64,000 nucleotides of DNA from Prochlorococcus sp. AG-363-O06 (GTDB lineage Bacteria > Cyanobacteriota > Cyanobacteriia > PCC-6307 > Cyanobiaceae), in contig QCFY01000003.1 of assembly GCA_003280085.1 (NCBI GenBank), positions 1 through 64,000 on the forward strand. The letters are read 5' to 3'. The notes under the pieces are model-generated. The model did not search any database, was not told the DNA's origin, and saw nothing but the letters and a program-made list of their open reading frames with translations. Made by a program: the position numbers and the translations under genes. This document shows positions 6,189 to 55,521 of the stretch, piece after piece (position 1 is the stretch's first letter; every line of letters starts with the position of its first letter).

Positions 6189-6377
6189 GTGATTGGAGAT
6201 CCATATACAGTTTTTGTTCTTATTGGGCTCGTTTTCTTGGGCTTGCAGCTTTATGTACTGCTTTCAATCCTCAAGAACAATAGAGGTGAAAGATTTTTCT
6301 TTAATCGAACGCAGATGTATGCGATTCAGCTTCGTATAGAAAAACTCTTTGGTCAGATACATACGCGGAAGGATTAA
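6189..6377 (+). CDS. small single-pass membrane protein
   Basis: 62 residues starting at GTG 6189. A hydrophobic helix at about residues 8-27 (VFVLIGLVFLGLQLYVLLSI) is followed by a basic cytoplasmic-type tail. The positive-inside rule puts the C-terminus in the cytoplasm. It ends 4 bases inside the convergent DCC-type gene. Function unknown. Confidence 0.5.
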   Translation: MIGDPYTVFVLIGLVFLGLQLYVLLSILKNNRGERFFFNRTQMYAIQLRIEKLFGQIHTRKD

Positions 6378-6775
6378 AGGTCAATTTGCTCACGCTGCCT
6401 GCAAAGTTGCTCCAATGATGGTCGACGGGTGAAAGGAAGGCGCCAACGTGCCCAAAAGGTATAAAGCCCATCAAATAAAGCTCCTAATAAAGGCCATGTT
6501 GTTGGCGCATAGATCCAGCCCAGCCCAACTAATCGATATGCTTCTCGAAAGACCTGAATATCTTTTAGGACTTTGCCAGAAGAATTGATCCCATGGATTC
6601 TCCCCATCGCTTCTCGATAACTAATTTTGCAAAATAGTTCTGGGTTGTAGTCAGGAGAGTCAATATTTATAAATGCAATCCTGTTTGAGCTATCTCTAGA
6701 TCGAAGAAAAGAGACTTCTCTTTTGCAAAGAGGGCAACCGCCATCAAAAAGTAAAGTTAGATCTTGTTTAGTCAC
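6374..6775 (-). CDS. DCC family (DUF393) thiol-disulfide oxidoreductase-like protein
   Basis: 133 residues. The N-terminal strand followed by DGGCPLCKRE (residues 11-20) is the signature of the DUF393/DCC family. These are thioredoxin-fold-like proteins with a CXXC pair (C14, C17) thought to act in thiol-disulfide exchange; substrates are not known. The mid-protein segment carrying GLGW and the Arg/Trp-rich C-terminus are also typical. It is predicted cytoplasmic, since no signal peptide is visible. The start codon is the natural ATG just ahead of the first strand. Confidence 0.85.
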   Translation of the reverse strand: MTKQDLTLLFDGGCPLCKREVSFLRSRDSSNRIAFINIDSPDYNPELFCKISYREAMGRIHGINSSGKVLKDIQVFREAYRLVGLGWIYAPTTWPLLGALFDGLYTFWARWRLPFTRRPSLEQLCRQREQIDL

Positions 6776-6997
6776 AATGTAGTTACTTAAAAGAGCTTTT
6801 GAGATTGAAGCTTTTCATTCAAATTTTATCTAAATTATTGCTGGATGCTTAGGACGAATACTATGAATCAATTTAATCTCTAGATAATGTGACATAAGCT
6901 CAACACTATAAATATAATCATATCAATTATCACCAGGAAATTGTAAAGAATCATCCAAGTATCTTTTCGTTAATCTTGGTGTTAGAAGCAGACATTA

Positions 6998-7028
6998 AAA
7001 AAGCCTCTTACGTTGGAAGAGGCTTTTT
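6998..7028. terminator. strong bidirectional rho-independent terminator
   Basis: A perfect 12-bp stem, AAAAAGCCTCTT paired with AAGAGGCTTTTT, closes a 7-base loop. It ends in a T-run on the plus strand and reads equally well on the minus strand. The genes on both sides start away from it (DCC gene leftward, permease remnant rightward), so it does not terminate a known CDS. This suggests an unannotated transcript. Confidence 0.75.
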
Positions 7029-7099
7029 GTGTATGCCGTATGACCCCCATCACCCGGCCTTGATCTGAGAATAGTCACTGTCAAGCGATTTGTCATGGG

Positions 7100-7240
7100 T
7101 AGAAACACACTATTTATAGTATTGCTTATATATCCGATAAGAAAAAACACTACTTGTGGGGGTTGATTTTGAGCTCAATCTCTCTTAGAAAACAAGTTCC
7201 CCATCACCTAGGCCCTGCGTGGTACGCAAGGGTCTTTTTT
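7100..7240 (+). ncRNA. candidate small RNA ending in a strong terminator
   Basis: A 550-base interval without a gene holds a classic terminator at its right end and, upstream of it, an AT-rich promoter-like patch (TATTTATAGTAT near 7110-7121) and a 10-bp palindrome TTGAGCTCAA (about 7168-7177). The motif CCCCATCACC at 7199-7208 repeats one at 7045-7054, each followed within 3 bases by GGCC. The RNA's ends, and its existence, are inferred. It does not match the landmarks of tmRNA, RNase P RNA, SRP RNA or Yfr1. Confidence 0.35.
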
Positions 7241-7241
7241 T
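7209..7241 (+). terminator. rho-independent terminator
   Basis: The stem GCCCTGCGT / ACGCAAGGGT has one bulged A and a short loop, followed by a run of seven T. It is oriented to end a plus-strand transcript, for which no protein-coding gene is visible upstream. Confidence 0.7.
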
Positions 7242-7330
7242 GTCCAAAATTTGGTCAAGCCTATTTGCTAAAAATGCATTGCCTAGAAGGGGTCAGCTTA
7301 TTAAGCAATAATTGGATTTGACTCAAGTTC

Positions 7331-7837
7331 ATGACACCTGGCTTGGGGGTTTTATTGATTCCTCTTCTGGAAATAAGAGTCGACCTTGAGTCTATTTTAT
7401 TTGGGGACCTTCTTGCGGTGGATTCGTCTGATCTAATCAGAACATTACTTGCAGGAACTGCATTACTTTTACTATTAAGAACCTCATATCAGAAATTAGT
7501 TTATTTAGGCTTGGATCCTGAAGGAGCAGCTTCCAGTGGGCTTAATGTCCCTTCATTACGGTTGGCACTTGGTTTTGTAACTGCTCTAGTTATTGTGAGT
7601 GCGATGGCTGCTGTCGGGGTGATTTTGGTTATAAGTTTACTTTCAGCGCCAGCCCTTTTGGGTTTGCATCAAGCGCCTAATTTATATTCAGCAATGCTAA
7701 GGGCGGCAGCATTAGGGATTCTTTTTTCTTTTGTAGGATTTCTACTTGCTATTTCTTTTAACCTTTCTCCAGGCCCTTTGATAGGCGTAATCTGCCTACT
7801 TTCTTTGTCTTGCTTAAGACAAAGATTAAAATATTAG
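7331..7837 (+). pseudogene. truncated metal ABC transporter permease (ABC-3/ZnuB-MntB family), C-terminal part
   Basis: 168 codons match the C-terminal 60 percent of ABC-3 family permeases (normally about 270 residues), which import zinc or manganese. The LESILFGDLLAV segment, the FDPE-like LDPEGAASSGL cytoplasmic element and the final helices with AAVGVILVISLLSAPALLG are clear. The first three or so helices are missing: an in-frame TGA lies at 7319-7321, just before the ATG, and no homologous sequence is evident upstream. No ATPase or binding-protein gene is nearby. It is most likely a decaying remnant, although the retained frame leaves open a shortened functional protein. Confidence 0.6.
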
Positions 7838-8911: not shown

Positions 8912-9529
8912 ATGGATTATAGACTTTTTTTTTCAGCAACTAAACGTAATCGTAATCCAATCAGGGAAATCCTTACTAAGAATCTCCCAGAGAAAGGTAC
9001 TGTCCTTGAGATAGCGAGTGGATCTGGTGAACATGCTGTATTTTTTCAAAAGTGTTTCCCTGGAAATGTTTGGCAATCAAGCGATCCAGACCATAGCCAT
9101 AGAAGGAGTATTCACTCCTGGATTAATTATGAAGGCCTTTTAGAAAAGATGCCTTTACCTATAGATTTAGATGTTGAGAAAGATCCCTGGCCTTTGCCAA
9201 TTAGCATATTGGATAATTTATGTGCCATTGTTTGTATTAATATGCTTCATGTTGCGCCTTGGAGTGCAACACAGTCATTATTTAATGGTGCATTAAATAC
9301 CCTTAAGGGGAATTCACCTTTAATTATTTATGGCCCTTTTAAGAATAATGGTCAGCACATAAGTCAAAGTAACGAGGTTTTTGACAAGTCTTTAAAGGAA
9401 ATTAATTCAAGCTGGGGACTTAAAAATTTACAGGATGTCAATCAGCTTGCAGAGGAATTTCATATTGGGATAAATAAAATCATTGAAATGCCTGCTAATA
9501 ACCTTGTTTTAATTTATACTAAACTCTAG
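8912..9529 (+). CDS. DUF938 SAM-dependent methyltransferase
   Basis: 205 residues. The family-specific opening (FFSATKRNRNPIREIL) leads into the SAM-binding glycine loop VLEIASGSGEHAVFF (about 31-45). The later segments CINMLHVAPW and LIIYGPFKNNG are characteristic of DUF938 class I methyltransferases. The substrate is not established for the family. It starts at ATG 8912 and is followed after 36 bases by an SDR gene in the same direction, so the two may be cotranscribed. Confidence 0.85.
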   Translation: MDYRLFFSATKRNRNPIREILTKNLPEKGTVLEIASGSGEHAVFFQKCFPGNVWQSSDPDHSHRRSIHSWINYEGLLEKMPLPIDLDVEKDPWPLPISILDNLCAIVCINMLHVAPWSATQSLFNGALNTLKGNSPLIIYGPFKNNGQHISQSNEVFDKSLKEINSSWGLKNLQDVNQLAEEFHIGINKIIEMPANNLVLIYTKL

Positions 9530-34838: not shown

Positions 34839-35591
34839 ATGGCACAAAATCATGGTCCGCTTGTTTACGAAGGCAAAGCCAAGCGGATTTATGGGATGAA
34901 TGAGCCAGGAGAAGTCATGGTTGAATTCAAAAATGATGCAACTGCTTTTAATGCAAAAAAGAAGTCAGAGATTGATGGCAAAGGTAGATTGAATTGCCTG
35001 CTTTCAGCCTATTTTTTCGAGTTACTTGAATCAGAAGGGATTCAAACTCATTACAGAGGCCTTATTTCCGATAATTGGATGGTTGCTCAACATGTTGAAG
35101 TTATCCCGATTGAGGTGGTTTTGCGAAATATTGCCACGGGCTCTTTATGTAGAGAGACACCAGTAAAGCAAGGTACCAAGCTAAAACCGCCATTACTTGA
35201 CCTTTACTTCAAAGACGATGCATTAGGAGATCCTTTGCTTACAGAATCCCGTTTGGAATTATTAGATCTAATGTCTTCGGATCGAAGGGCTGAGCTTGAA
35301 AAACTTGCACGTAGAGTAAATGATGTATTGAGTCATTTTATGCAAAAGTTAGATCTATTATTAGTGGACTTAAAGTTAGAGTTGGGTACCAATCAGGAAG
35401 GTCAGCTTTTAGTTGCTGATGAAATCAGCCCAGATACTTGCAGGATTTGGGACCTACGTATTGATGACCCTAGGGATCGAATCCTCGACAAGGACCGATT
35501 TCGCCAAGACCTTGGTGGTGTAGCTGAGTCCTACGAGGAGGTTCTTAAGCGTGTGCAAGAGGTCTCCTCCAGACCACGCCACTACAACTAA
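34839..35591 (+). CDS. purC: phosphoribosylaminoimidazole-succinocarboxamide synthase PurC
   Basis: 250 residues from ATG 34839, giving the conserved YEGKAKRIY start; an upstream extension of the frame is not conserved and is rejected. It ligates CAIR with aspartate to give [26 protein letters not shown] and [12 protein letters not shown] are family motifs. The SD-like GAGGG lies 5 bases before the ATG. Confidence 0.97.
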
Positions 35592-35635
35592 GGTCGCAAA
35601 CGTTCAAGGGCTCTCCTAGCAATTCTCCATCATCC

Positions 35636-37906
35636 ATGGCCAGATTTTTATACAACGGATCTTCGGATGTTTTTCGCAGAGGTGCATATGGACTTGCTCT
35701 GGTTCTTCCAGTCTTAGTTGGTACTCCAGAAGGCGAATCCAATAAAAAAGAATTGCTAAATGACCGGAATGGTTCCTTATATAGGGAGTACAGAGTTTCG
35801 GAGGATGATTCTTTAAATATTGAGAGACAAATTTCAGGTCCACTTATTGCTGATGATTTTAGTGGAGAAAGGCTAGTAGGAAATCAGCAGCAGAATAAAG
35901 CAGAAGCAAGGGTTTTAATATCTGAAGTAATTATTCAAGGTATTGATAATCATCCCGAAAAAAATCGGTTGGAATTTGCTGCATATGATGCAATGAGTAT
36001 ACGCCCTGGCAGTAGAGTTACTAAACAGCAATTAAAGCTAGACCTTGATGCAATTTATTCAACAGGTTGGTTCGCCGGAGTTCGAGTAGAGCCAATTAAA
36101 GGACCTTTAGGTGTTCGCCTTTTAGTCGATGTCGAGCCCAACCCGGTATTGACTAAAATTGAAATTGAACAAAGGGGAATTCAACTACCTAGTAAGATTG
36201 TTGATGAAGTCTTTCGGCAGGACGTAGGAAAGACACTTAATCTAAATGCACTTCAATTGAGATTAAAAAGACTTAAGAAATGGTATTCAAGAAAGGGATA
36301 TTCACTTGCAAGAATAACTGGACCTAAAAGAGTTACTAAGGATGGATTAATTACATTAAATGTTGTCGAAGGGACTGTTGAAGGTATAGAAGTTCAGTTC
36401 CTTAGTAAAGAAGGTGACACTGTTGATGAAAAAGGTAAAGTAATTAAAGGTAAGACAAAAAAATGGGTAATTGAAAGAGAAATCTCTATAAAGCCTGGAG
36501 ATCCTTTTAATAGGAATCAGTTAGAAGGTGATATCAAGCGACTCTATGGGACATCACTTTTTAGCGATGTGAAAGTAACTTTAAAACCTGTACCCGGACA
36601 ACTTGGGAGTGTCAAAATAGTTTTAGGAATTACAGAACAAACAACAGGTTCACTTTCTGGCGGAATTGGTTATAGCCAGAGTCAAGGAGTGTTTGGGCAA
36701 ATTGGTCTTCAAGATACAAACCTTGTTGGTAGATCTTGGAGCTCTACTCTCAACTTGACTTATGGTCAATATGGTGGTCTCGCTAACTTAACTTTTGCTG
36801 ATCCATGGATTAAAGGTGATAGACATAGGACTTCTTTTCGGACTTCTATTTTCTTGAGTAGAGAAGTCCCTCAAGTTTTTCGTAGTAAAACTACAGGAAC
36901 TATTAGAGGTGCACATGATTATTACGAAGGGGGGTCAACTCTTGCTTATGATATTAACTCTTCATTGCATAATAAAGGTAAGTTTAACTCTGTCTCAGAA
37001 GCAAAGAGTGCGGACCCTTCTAGCAGTTGGTTTGACTATTCAGGGAATTCAGTAGCTCTTCAAAGAACAGGAATGAGCTTTGTTGTTTCAAGGCCATTAA
37101 ATAATGGGAATCCATACAAAAGGGTTCCGTGGAGTGTTCTTCTTGGAATGAATGTTCAGAATGTTAGGCCTATTGACTATGCAGGTAGAAGTCAGCCTTA
37201 TGGAATTGCTACTAATAAACTTAAAGACGGTTCTCCTTTAGATAAAGACATTATTTGTATATCATTTAATTGTGCTGAGGAAAACTCCTTAGTTGGATTT
37301 AGAGCAGCTGCTACGTATAACCAATTAAATGAGCCTAGAAATCCAACTTCGGGCAATTTTTTGAGCATTGGAACTGAACAATTTGTCTCTATTGGGGAGA
37401 ATTCTCCTATGTTTAATAGGGCTAGAGTTAGTTACACTCACTTTATTCCTGTTAACTGGTTGAAGCTTTCAAAAGGTTGTAGGCCGAAAGATGGTGAAAA
37501 GGAGAATTGTCCTCAGGCAATTGGTATGCAATTAAAAGCAGGAACAATTGTTGGTGAGCTTCCTCCATATGAAGCTTTTTGTTTAGGAGGGTCTAATTCA
37601 GTTAGAGGTTGGAGTTCTTGTGATCTAGCAGTTGGGCGTAGTTTTGGAGAAGCTTCTGTTGAATATAGATTTCCAATTTGGAATATTGTTTCGGGGGCTC
37701 TTTTCTTTGATGCTGGAACGGACTTTAGTTCTCAATCCAACGTTCCAGGAAAGCCCGGCAAACTTTTGGAGAAGCCAGGGACAGGCTTTTCTGTAGGTTC
37801 GGGCTTGATTGTTAATACACCTGTTGGGCCATTAAGGCTTGAAGCTGCTAGCCAAGATTTTCAGGGGGAATGGCGTTTCAATCTTGGAGTCGGCTGGAAG
37901 TTCTAG
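35636..37906 (+). CDS. Omp85/BamA-type outer-membrane assembly protein (Toc75-related)
   Basis: 756 residues. A short N-terminal hydrophobic stretch (about 16-30) may act as a signal sequence. POTRA repeats occupy roughly 90-345 (ISEVIIQGID, VLTKIEIEQRG, EGIEVQFLS and later TSLFSDVKVTLK). A 16-strand beta-barrel follows, containing the GLANLTFADPWIKG segment and GSNSVRGWSSCDLAVGRS, the VRGW/Y-type lid-lock motif, and ends in the typical C-terminal aromatic (WKF). It inserts beta-barrel proteins into the outer membrane and is the relative of chloroplast Toc75. Its stop overlaps lpxC (TAGTG), so it heads the envelope operon. Confidence 0.93.
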   Translation: MARFLYNGSSDVFRRGAYGLALVLPVLVGTPEGESNKKELLNDRNGSLYREYRVSEDDSLNIERQISGPLIADDFSGERLVGNQQQNKAEARVLISEVIIQGIDNHPEKNRLEFAAYDAMSIRPGSRVTKQQLKLDLDAIYSTGWFAGVRVEPIKGPLGVRLLVDVEPNPVLTKIEIEQRGIQLPSKIVDEVFRQDVGKTLNLNALQLRLKRLKKWYSRKGYSLARITGPKRVTKDGLITLNVVEGTVEGIEVQFLSKEGDTVDEKGKVIKGKTKKWVIEREISIKPGDPFNRNQLEGDIKRLYGTSLFSDVKVTLKPVPGQLGSVKIVLGITEQTTGSLSGGIGYSQSQGVFGQIGLQDTNLVGRSWSSTLNLTYGQYGGLANLTFADPWIKGDRHRTSFRTSIFLSREVPQVFRSKTTGTIRGAHDYYEGGSTLAYDINSSLHNKGKFNSVSEAKSADPSSSWFDYSGNSVALQRTGMSFVVSRPLNNGNPYKRVPWSVLLGMNVQNVRPIDYAGRSQPYGIATNKLKDGSPLDKDIICISFNCAEENSLVGFRAAATYNQLNEPRNPTSGNFLSIGTEQFVSIGENSPMFNRARVSYTHFIPVNWLKLSKGCRPKDGEKENCPQAIGMQLKAGTIVGELPPYEAFCLGGSNSVRGWSSCDLAVGRSFGEASVEYRFPIWNIVSGALFFDAGTDFSSQSNVPGKPGKLLEKPGTGFSVGSGLIVNTPVGPLRLEAASQDFQGEWRFNLGVGWKF

Positions 37907-55383: not shown

Positions 55384-55415
55384 AAAAAGCATCAAATGCA
55401 AAAAGGATGCTTTTT
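55384..55415 (+). terminator. hup rho-independent terminator
   Basis: AAAAAGCATC pairs with GATGCTTTTT across a 10-base loop, ending in a T-run. Adjacent to the hup stop. Confidence 0.8.
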
Positions 55416-55521
55416 CTCACCAAGAGCCTGAAACCCCTCAGGCTCTAAAACTTTTATGTCTTAATGCTTGGACTATCCAGATCACTTGCGTTTGTGCTTT
55501 GAGCAAGGTAATAGTTTAAGA

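Follow-up and report, generated by a model that had tools for sequence, protein, structure and literature searches.

What is encoded by a gene-free interval of Prochlorococcus that carries two strong hairpins and two copies of one decamer? We analysed this question in a window of 64,000 nt (the whole stretch of DNA under study), located on contig C3 of the 1.42-Mb draft genome of strain AG-363-O06; additional copies of the locus were present on contigs C4 and C25. The interval is flanked by a DCC1-like gene (6374-6775, minus strand) and an ABC-3 permease fragment (7331-7837, plus strand). A preliminary description had regarded it as a gene-free small-RNA locus with its own terminators, and folding results agreed with this: the left hairpin region (6920-7035) folded strongly (z = -4.4), and the right hairpin gave z = -3.1. 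The decamer CCCCATCACC occurs just twice in the window, at 7045-7054 and at 7199-7208 (chance expectation, 0.04 per 64 kb). The GGCC that had been noticed behind each copy was also found, one base 3' of the left decamer (7056-7059) and two bases 3' of the right decamer (7211-7214). In a DNA search, block 7036-7241 was matched in 62 of 400 genomes of the same family; the long matches had 70-88% identity, and there was mostly more than one copy per genome. The same arrangement in dozens of relatives indicated that the locus is well beyond chance. The ABC-3 metal-transporter permease ORF next to it lacks about 95 N-terminal profile positions, starts shortly past the terminator of the plus-strand RNA A described below and is probably a truncated gene.

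No tRNA and no Rfam family at its gathering score was found at the locus; Yfr2 was among the families searched, as were tmRNA, 6S, SRP, RNase P RNA and Yfr1, none of which the preliminary description had recognized here. With a permissive threshold, matches to attenuators and sRNAs appeared at chance level only, driven by the left hairpin. Annotated phages contained no close copy of the locus, and 16-mer pattern scans of genome and viral contig collections returned mostly unrelated high-GC matches.

Gene structure of the locus

The locus probably encodes two short RNAs, A and B, arranged head-to-head and transcribed away from each other (Table 1); this grading is a joint one for the whole model, in which A represses rpoD4 and B is a decoy. 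The covariance model R1, built for A, had a single convincing match in the window, at 7134-7240 (E = 9e-26), and that for B, R2, likewise had one, at 6997-7064 on the minus strand (E = 7e-12). Two weak matches, one to B at 55384-55449 (minus strand, E = 0.04) and one to A at 35566-35675 (plus strand, E = 0.12), are probably due to chance.

Table 1. Predicted features of the sRNA locus, in window coordinates.
Feature	Position	Strand	Basis or remark
RNA B (predicted, ~65 nt): AAGGCCGGGUGAUGGGGGUCAUACGGC... and terminator	~7061-6997	-	Model R2; fold z = -4.8
B intrinsic terminator (left hairpin of the locus)	7000-7028	-	Fold; minus-strand T-runs in Synechococcus-type loci
B 5' hairpin, GGGG loop	7034-7059	-	Contains the left decamer read backwards; complementary to the A seed; rpoD4-hairpin mimic
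B promoter: -35 ATGACA (7096-7091), 17 nt, -10 TATTCT (7073-7068)	7068-7096	-	Consensus scan; same offsets in 36 copies
CACTATTTATAGT palindrome between both promoters, possible regulator site	7108-7120		Alignment conservation
CACTACTTGTGGGGG, conserved motif immediately 5' of the A -35	7148-7162	+	Copy alignment; G-run length variable
A promoter: -35 TTGATT (7163-7168), 17 nt, -10 TAGAAA (7186-7191)	7163-7191	+	Anchored profile, 92 copies
RNA A (predicted, 43 nt): UCCCCAUCACCUAGGCCC and terminator hairpin	~7198-7240	+	Model R1; fold z = -3.1; 52-copy alignment
A seed CCCCATCACC	7199-7208	+	Unpaired in consensus fold; predicted partner, rpoD4 start site
A intrinsic terminator	7211-7240	+	Stem covariation; sequence wholly different in Synechococcus-type copies

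The right end of the locus is a recurring unit consisting of CACTAnnTATGGGG, TTGATTT, 17 variable nucleotides, TAGAAA, about 7 nt, CCCCATCACC(C)(A)GGCCC and a GC hairpin followed by a T-run. In 92 copies, the distance between TTG and TAGAAA was constant and the letters in between were variable, as expected of a promoter. The start of the predicted transcript lies at CCCC or immediately in front of it; this RNA has the unpaired seed CCCCAUCACC as its 5' end and agrees with an earlier expectation of an RNA that ends at 7240. The seed CCCCATCACC was near-invariant in the 92 copies and invariant in the 52-copy alignment A1; the copies were gathered by a pattern that demanded CCCATCA and left the seed flanks free, yet the flanks were conserved also. 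In the 52-copy alignment, the terminator stem alone pairs, with compensatory changes: four pairs changed on both sides (0-2 of 500 for shuffles). In Synechococcus-type genomes, the seed was identical and the terminator sequence was replaced entirely. A promoter, a terminator and covariation were thus seen in the sequence for A, which is predicted to be an independent short transcript. The G-run in front of the A -35 (7158-7162; columns 44-55 of alignment A1) comprised between about 3 and 11 G, depending on the copy, and its slippage could tune expression.

We also considered a single longer ncRNA of about 150-200 nt that starts near 7090 and runs through to 7240, with the seed near its 3' end; it could correspond to Yfr103. 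Close relatives conserve all of 7036-7241, and Yfr103, like A, is present in several copies in marine picocyanobacteria and has an upstream palindrome that is conserved (PMC5069720). However, distant copies retained just the TTG-17-TAGAAA unit, the seed and the terminator, the G-run was variable in length, and 7030-7242 folded as one RNA was no stabler than its shuffles (z = -0.7). The Yfr103 paralogs are 290-328 nt long in Synechococcus and high-light strains are unlisted for them (PMC5069720), whereas A was present in the high-light genomes examined. We consider the longer RNA decidedly improbable and retain A as a short RNA of its own.

The left half of the locus reads on the minus strand as a promoter, followed by AAGGCCGGGTGATGGGGGTCATACGGC and then by the left hairpin and its T-run. 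Read on that strand, the left decamer gives GGTGATGGGG, its reverse complement, and the predicted 5' start of B, GGCCGGGUGAUGGGG, is the complement of the A seed. Conservation of B begins abruptly at GGCYGGGTGATGGGG (GGCYGGG). The 5' hairpin of B showed covariation beyond that of shuffles (0 of 500), and its deviations from pairing, when read on the minus strand, were G-U in 42 cases versus A-C in 5. This minus-strand-specific excess indicated a constraint on a minus-strand RNA and not on a DNA palindrome. The B sample had been chosen in part for a downstream T-run. In Synechococcus-type loci, the minus strand, but not the plus strand, has a T-run at the left hairpin. This hairpin is best read as a terminator on the minus strand, and a plus-strand RNA that ends at 7028, as suggested previously, was not supported. 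Of the tandem family that had been envisaged, short RNAs with their own terminators were supported and two same-sense copies were not: in reverse complement, the left decamer belongs to the 5' end of a second, divergent RNA.

In another reading, A alone is an RNA, and a transcription factor that controls A would use the left palindrome CCGnnTGATCCCCATCAnnCGG as its DNA operator. The element is palindromic and lies at a nearly fixed distance upstream of A, and a conserved palindrome upstream of the Yfr103 start has been interpreted as a factor site (PMC5069720). Against an operator stand the strand-specific G-U pairs and B's own minus-strand promoter and terminator, which Synechococcus-type loci also have, and it leaves the likeness to the rpoD4 hairpin (see below) unexplained; furthermore, some loci carry B without A. 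The excess of G-U, the terminators on the minus strand and the loci with B alone led us to drop the operator, which we rate as quite unlikely, in favour of B as an RNA.

Copies in related genomes and co-occurrence

Conservation of the hairpins and the decamer beyond this strain, on which the preliminary description had made its reading depend, was evident from covariance-model searches of 400 relatives (Prochlorococcus and marine Synechococcus), which we take to include MIT9313, SS120, MED4, MIT9515 and Synechococcus WH7803. R1 found A in 225 of the 400 genomes (E <= 0.001), in 180 of these at E <= 1e-5, with a maximum of nine copies per genome, and R2 found B in 210. Where A and B lay within 400 bp of each other, they were divergent in 43 of 43 cases, 37 of which were 145-150 bp apart; for 48 additional A copies, no B was detected nearby. 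In the genome taken as MED4, the A matches (348867-348965, 772358-772463 and 936731-936834) coincided with none of Yfr8-Yfr21 (PMC2518516, Table 1 of that paper). In this genome, the A seeds begin at 348,934 (plus strand), 772,399 (minus strand) and 936,799 (plus strand); the predicted 5' ends are near 348,933 (plus strand) for A and at about 348,838 (minus strand) for B, and the rpoD4 start codon is at 1,632,707.

Several individual loci are described here for their arrangement. One complete genome has seven locus copies in about 50 kb (G051:C1:89,000-141,000), suggesting spread inside a variable region. Locus L189 contains two A copies in opposite orientation about 450 bp apart (1097-1215, plus; 1553-1671, minus), the first without the upstream motifs. 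L168 (4733-5350, minus strand) and the window (8912-9529) have similar methyltransferase-like genes close to the sRNA locus, a possible shared position.

Strong matches to A and B co-occurred: both were present in 169 of the 400 genomes and neither in 179. For A and the rpoD4 target site (14-mer CAGGGTGATGGGGA, see below), both were present in 166 and neither in 144; the two lists share ancestry, so that Fisher values overstate independence and significance is inflated. The 14-mer was present in 39 genomes in which neither A nor B was detected; in some of these, relatives may have escaped the Prochlorococcus-trained models. Most genomes that lacked the 14-mer but had A or B were incomplete assemblies. 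The copies might instead be a functionless dispersed repeat whose match to rpoD4 is coincidental, as their number (up to nine per genome), their clustering in places and some degenerate members could suggest. This is extremely improbable in our assessment: the seed was near-invariant across genera although the terminators change, there is covariation at the RNA level, and A, B and the target co-occur.

The rpoD4 start site as predicted target

In the strain's own genome, GGTGATGGGG, the complement of the seed, was found at the start site of a sigma-factor gene, and it spans the start codon of rpoD4 in 11 of 11 genomes tested. At the level of sequence, this result bears out the suggestion that the decamer could be a C-rich seed for GGTGATGGGG-type targets. 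The gene, rpoD4 (PMM1697 in MED4), encodes a group-2 sigma factor; both qPCR primers published for PMM1697 (PMC2921402) lie inside the copy from the genome taken as MED4. PMM1697 was also among the candidate targets tested for Yfr1 (PMC3142192). In this one mRNA, the ribosome-binding site and the start codon are complementary to the A seed. The other decamer sites listed for complete genomes were mostly inside coding sequence or were degenerate or B-only copies, and no second recurrent gene start was found among them.

The start block of rpoD4, about 34 nt long, is almost frozen, including its synonymous sites. In 50 distinct rpoD4 sequences, collected by the core motif, identity of the block around GGAGGCCAGGGTGATGGGGATCCCTCTGGAATCT was 93% at -20 to +18 versus 57-60% in the flanks, and within codons 1-5 the third positions were 98-100% identical. 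In a separate protein-based set, independent of the motif, the block was present in all rpoD4 orthologues except those of two outlying genomes (G009 and G022). The 14-mer was found in 242 of the 400 genomes, and its reversed control in none. Since the block reaches beyond the stretch that would pair with A and folds into a hairpin of its own, some of its conservation may be independent of A. Neither the seed nor the target varies, and hence there is no seed-target covariation.

The A consensus would pair with rpoD4 at 18 of 19 positions, over the Shine-Dalgarno edge and the start codon. Net energies were -18 to -25 kcal/mol for A:rpoD4, -12 to -18 kcal/mol for A:B and about 0 for B:rpoD4; shuffled A sequences attained values near -21 to -23 kcal/mol, so that pairing energy by itself proves nothing and is weak evidence. 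The seed of A is conserved and accessible and matches a conserved target site by complementarity, as expected of a base-pairing sRNA. The B hairpin resembles the rpoD4 start-site hairpin and shares its GGGG loop and left arm, and the predicted B transcript carries a site complementary to the A seed, as a decoy would. As a separate observation, GAGTGATGGGGATCAC with a terminator occurs at L016 601, L017 1206 (minus strand), L022 1361, L164 9657 (minus strand) and L226 430 (minus strand); four of these five lie just past a short charged-protein gene. The element could be a 3'UTR-borne A decoy.

Proposed circuit and its relation to known RNAs

On the sequence evidence, we favour a model in which A represses translation of rpoD4 and B is a decoy for A, and we think it fairly probable. 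A would expose its unpaired 5' seed, CCCCAUCACC(C)(A)GGCC, and pair with GGCCAGGGUGAUGGGGAUC, which extends in the rpoD4 mRNA from the Shine-Dalgarno edge as far as codon 3; this pairing would block ribosome entry and repress translation. B, with the rpoD4 start-site sequence and a GGGG-loop hairpin, would bind A and titrate it, relieving repression. As A and B have separate promoters, the A:B ratio would set the output of rpoD4. Sequence comparison shows the conserved gene structure, a constraint on both RNAs at the RNA level, the strand of B, the complementarity, the frozen target block and the co-occurrence; transcription, repression by A and titration by B are inferred from these. Alternatively, A might activate rpoD4 by opening the start-site hairpin, or B might be the main effector with A as its antidote. 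The rpoD4 start site itself lies within a hairpin that could be inhibitory, but pairing of A with the Shine-Dalgarno edge and the start codon would occlude the ribosome, and we regard these alternatives to repression by A as unlikely.

Yfr1/Yfr10 and Yfr2 resemble A and B in being short, abundant cyanobacterial sRNAs with complementary motifs, some copies of which are encoded close together, and Yfr2 stops Yfr1/Yfr10 from binding targets in the same organism (PMC6778093). They differ from A and B in their motif, in having no fixed divergent pair and in having hundreds of targets versus one conserved target. In Vibrio, the Qrr sRNAs are likewise redundant, with several copies that share one seed, and are opposed by an RNA sponge, QrrX (PMC9732341). 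Among RNAs of the same organisms, Yfr1/Yfr10 with Yfr2 is the nearest functional parallel, and Qrr/QrrX is another parallel. To our knowledge, Qrr and QrrX are unrelated to A and B in sequence, do not form a head-to-head pair, and the sponge has no copy of the target's start-site hairpin. In E. coli, sRNAs act on the folded translation start region of rpoS, the mRNA of a group-2 sigma factor; they are unrelated to A and B and mostly activating. Complementary sRNA pairs as such are known (Yfr1/Yfr2, Qrr/QrrX), and the A/B pair appears to be new, although A or B may well have been seen earlier as unnamed transcripts. The predicted ends of A and B are precise enough for comparison with existing transcriptome data.

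Because the rpoD4 transcript builds up towards the end of the light period (PMC2663038, PMC2921402), a daily role for the proposed circuit is plausible. Prochlorococcus MED4 has just five sigma factors and few other regulators (PMC2663038). Conservation of the set of A, B and rpoD4 extends throughout the most abundant photosynthetic cells of the ocean, and the two RNAs have no entry in Rfam. We consider it evenly poised whether marine picocyanobacteria share a three-RNA circuit that consists of a multicopy repressor sRNA, a divergent decoy that copies the ribosome-binding hairpin of the target and one essentially dedicated target, a daily-cycle group-2 sigma factor. If the model is true, a conserved RNA switch with a built-in decoy, acting on a sigma factor, would give the most abundant phototrophs a central control at the post-transcriptional level.
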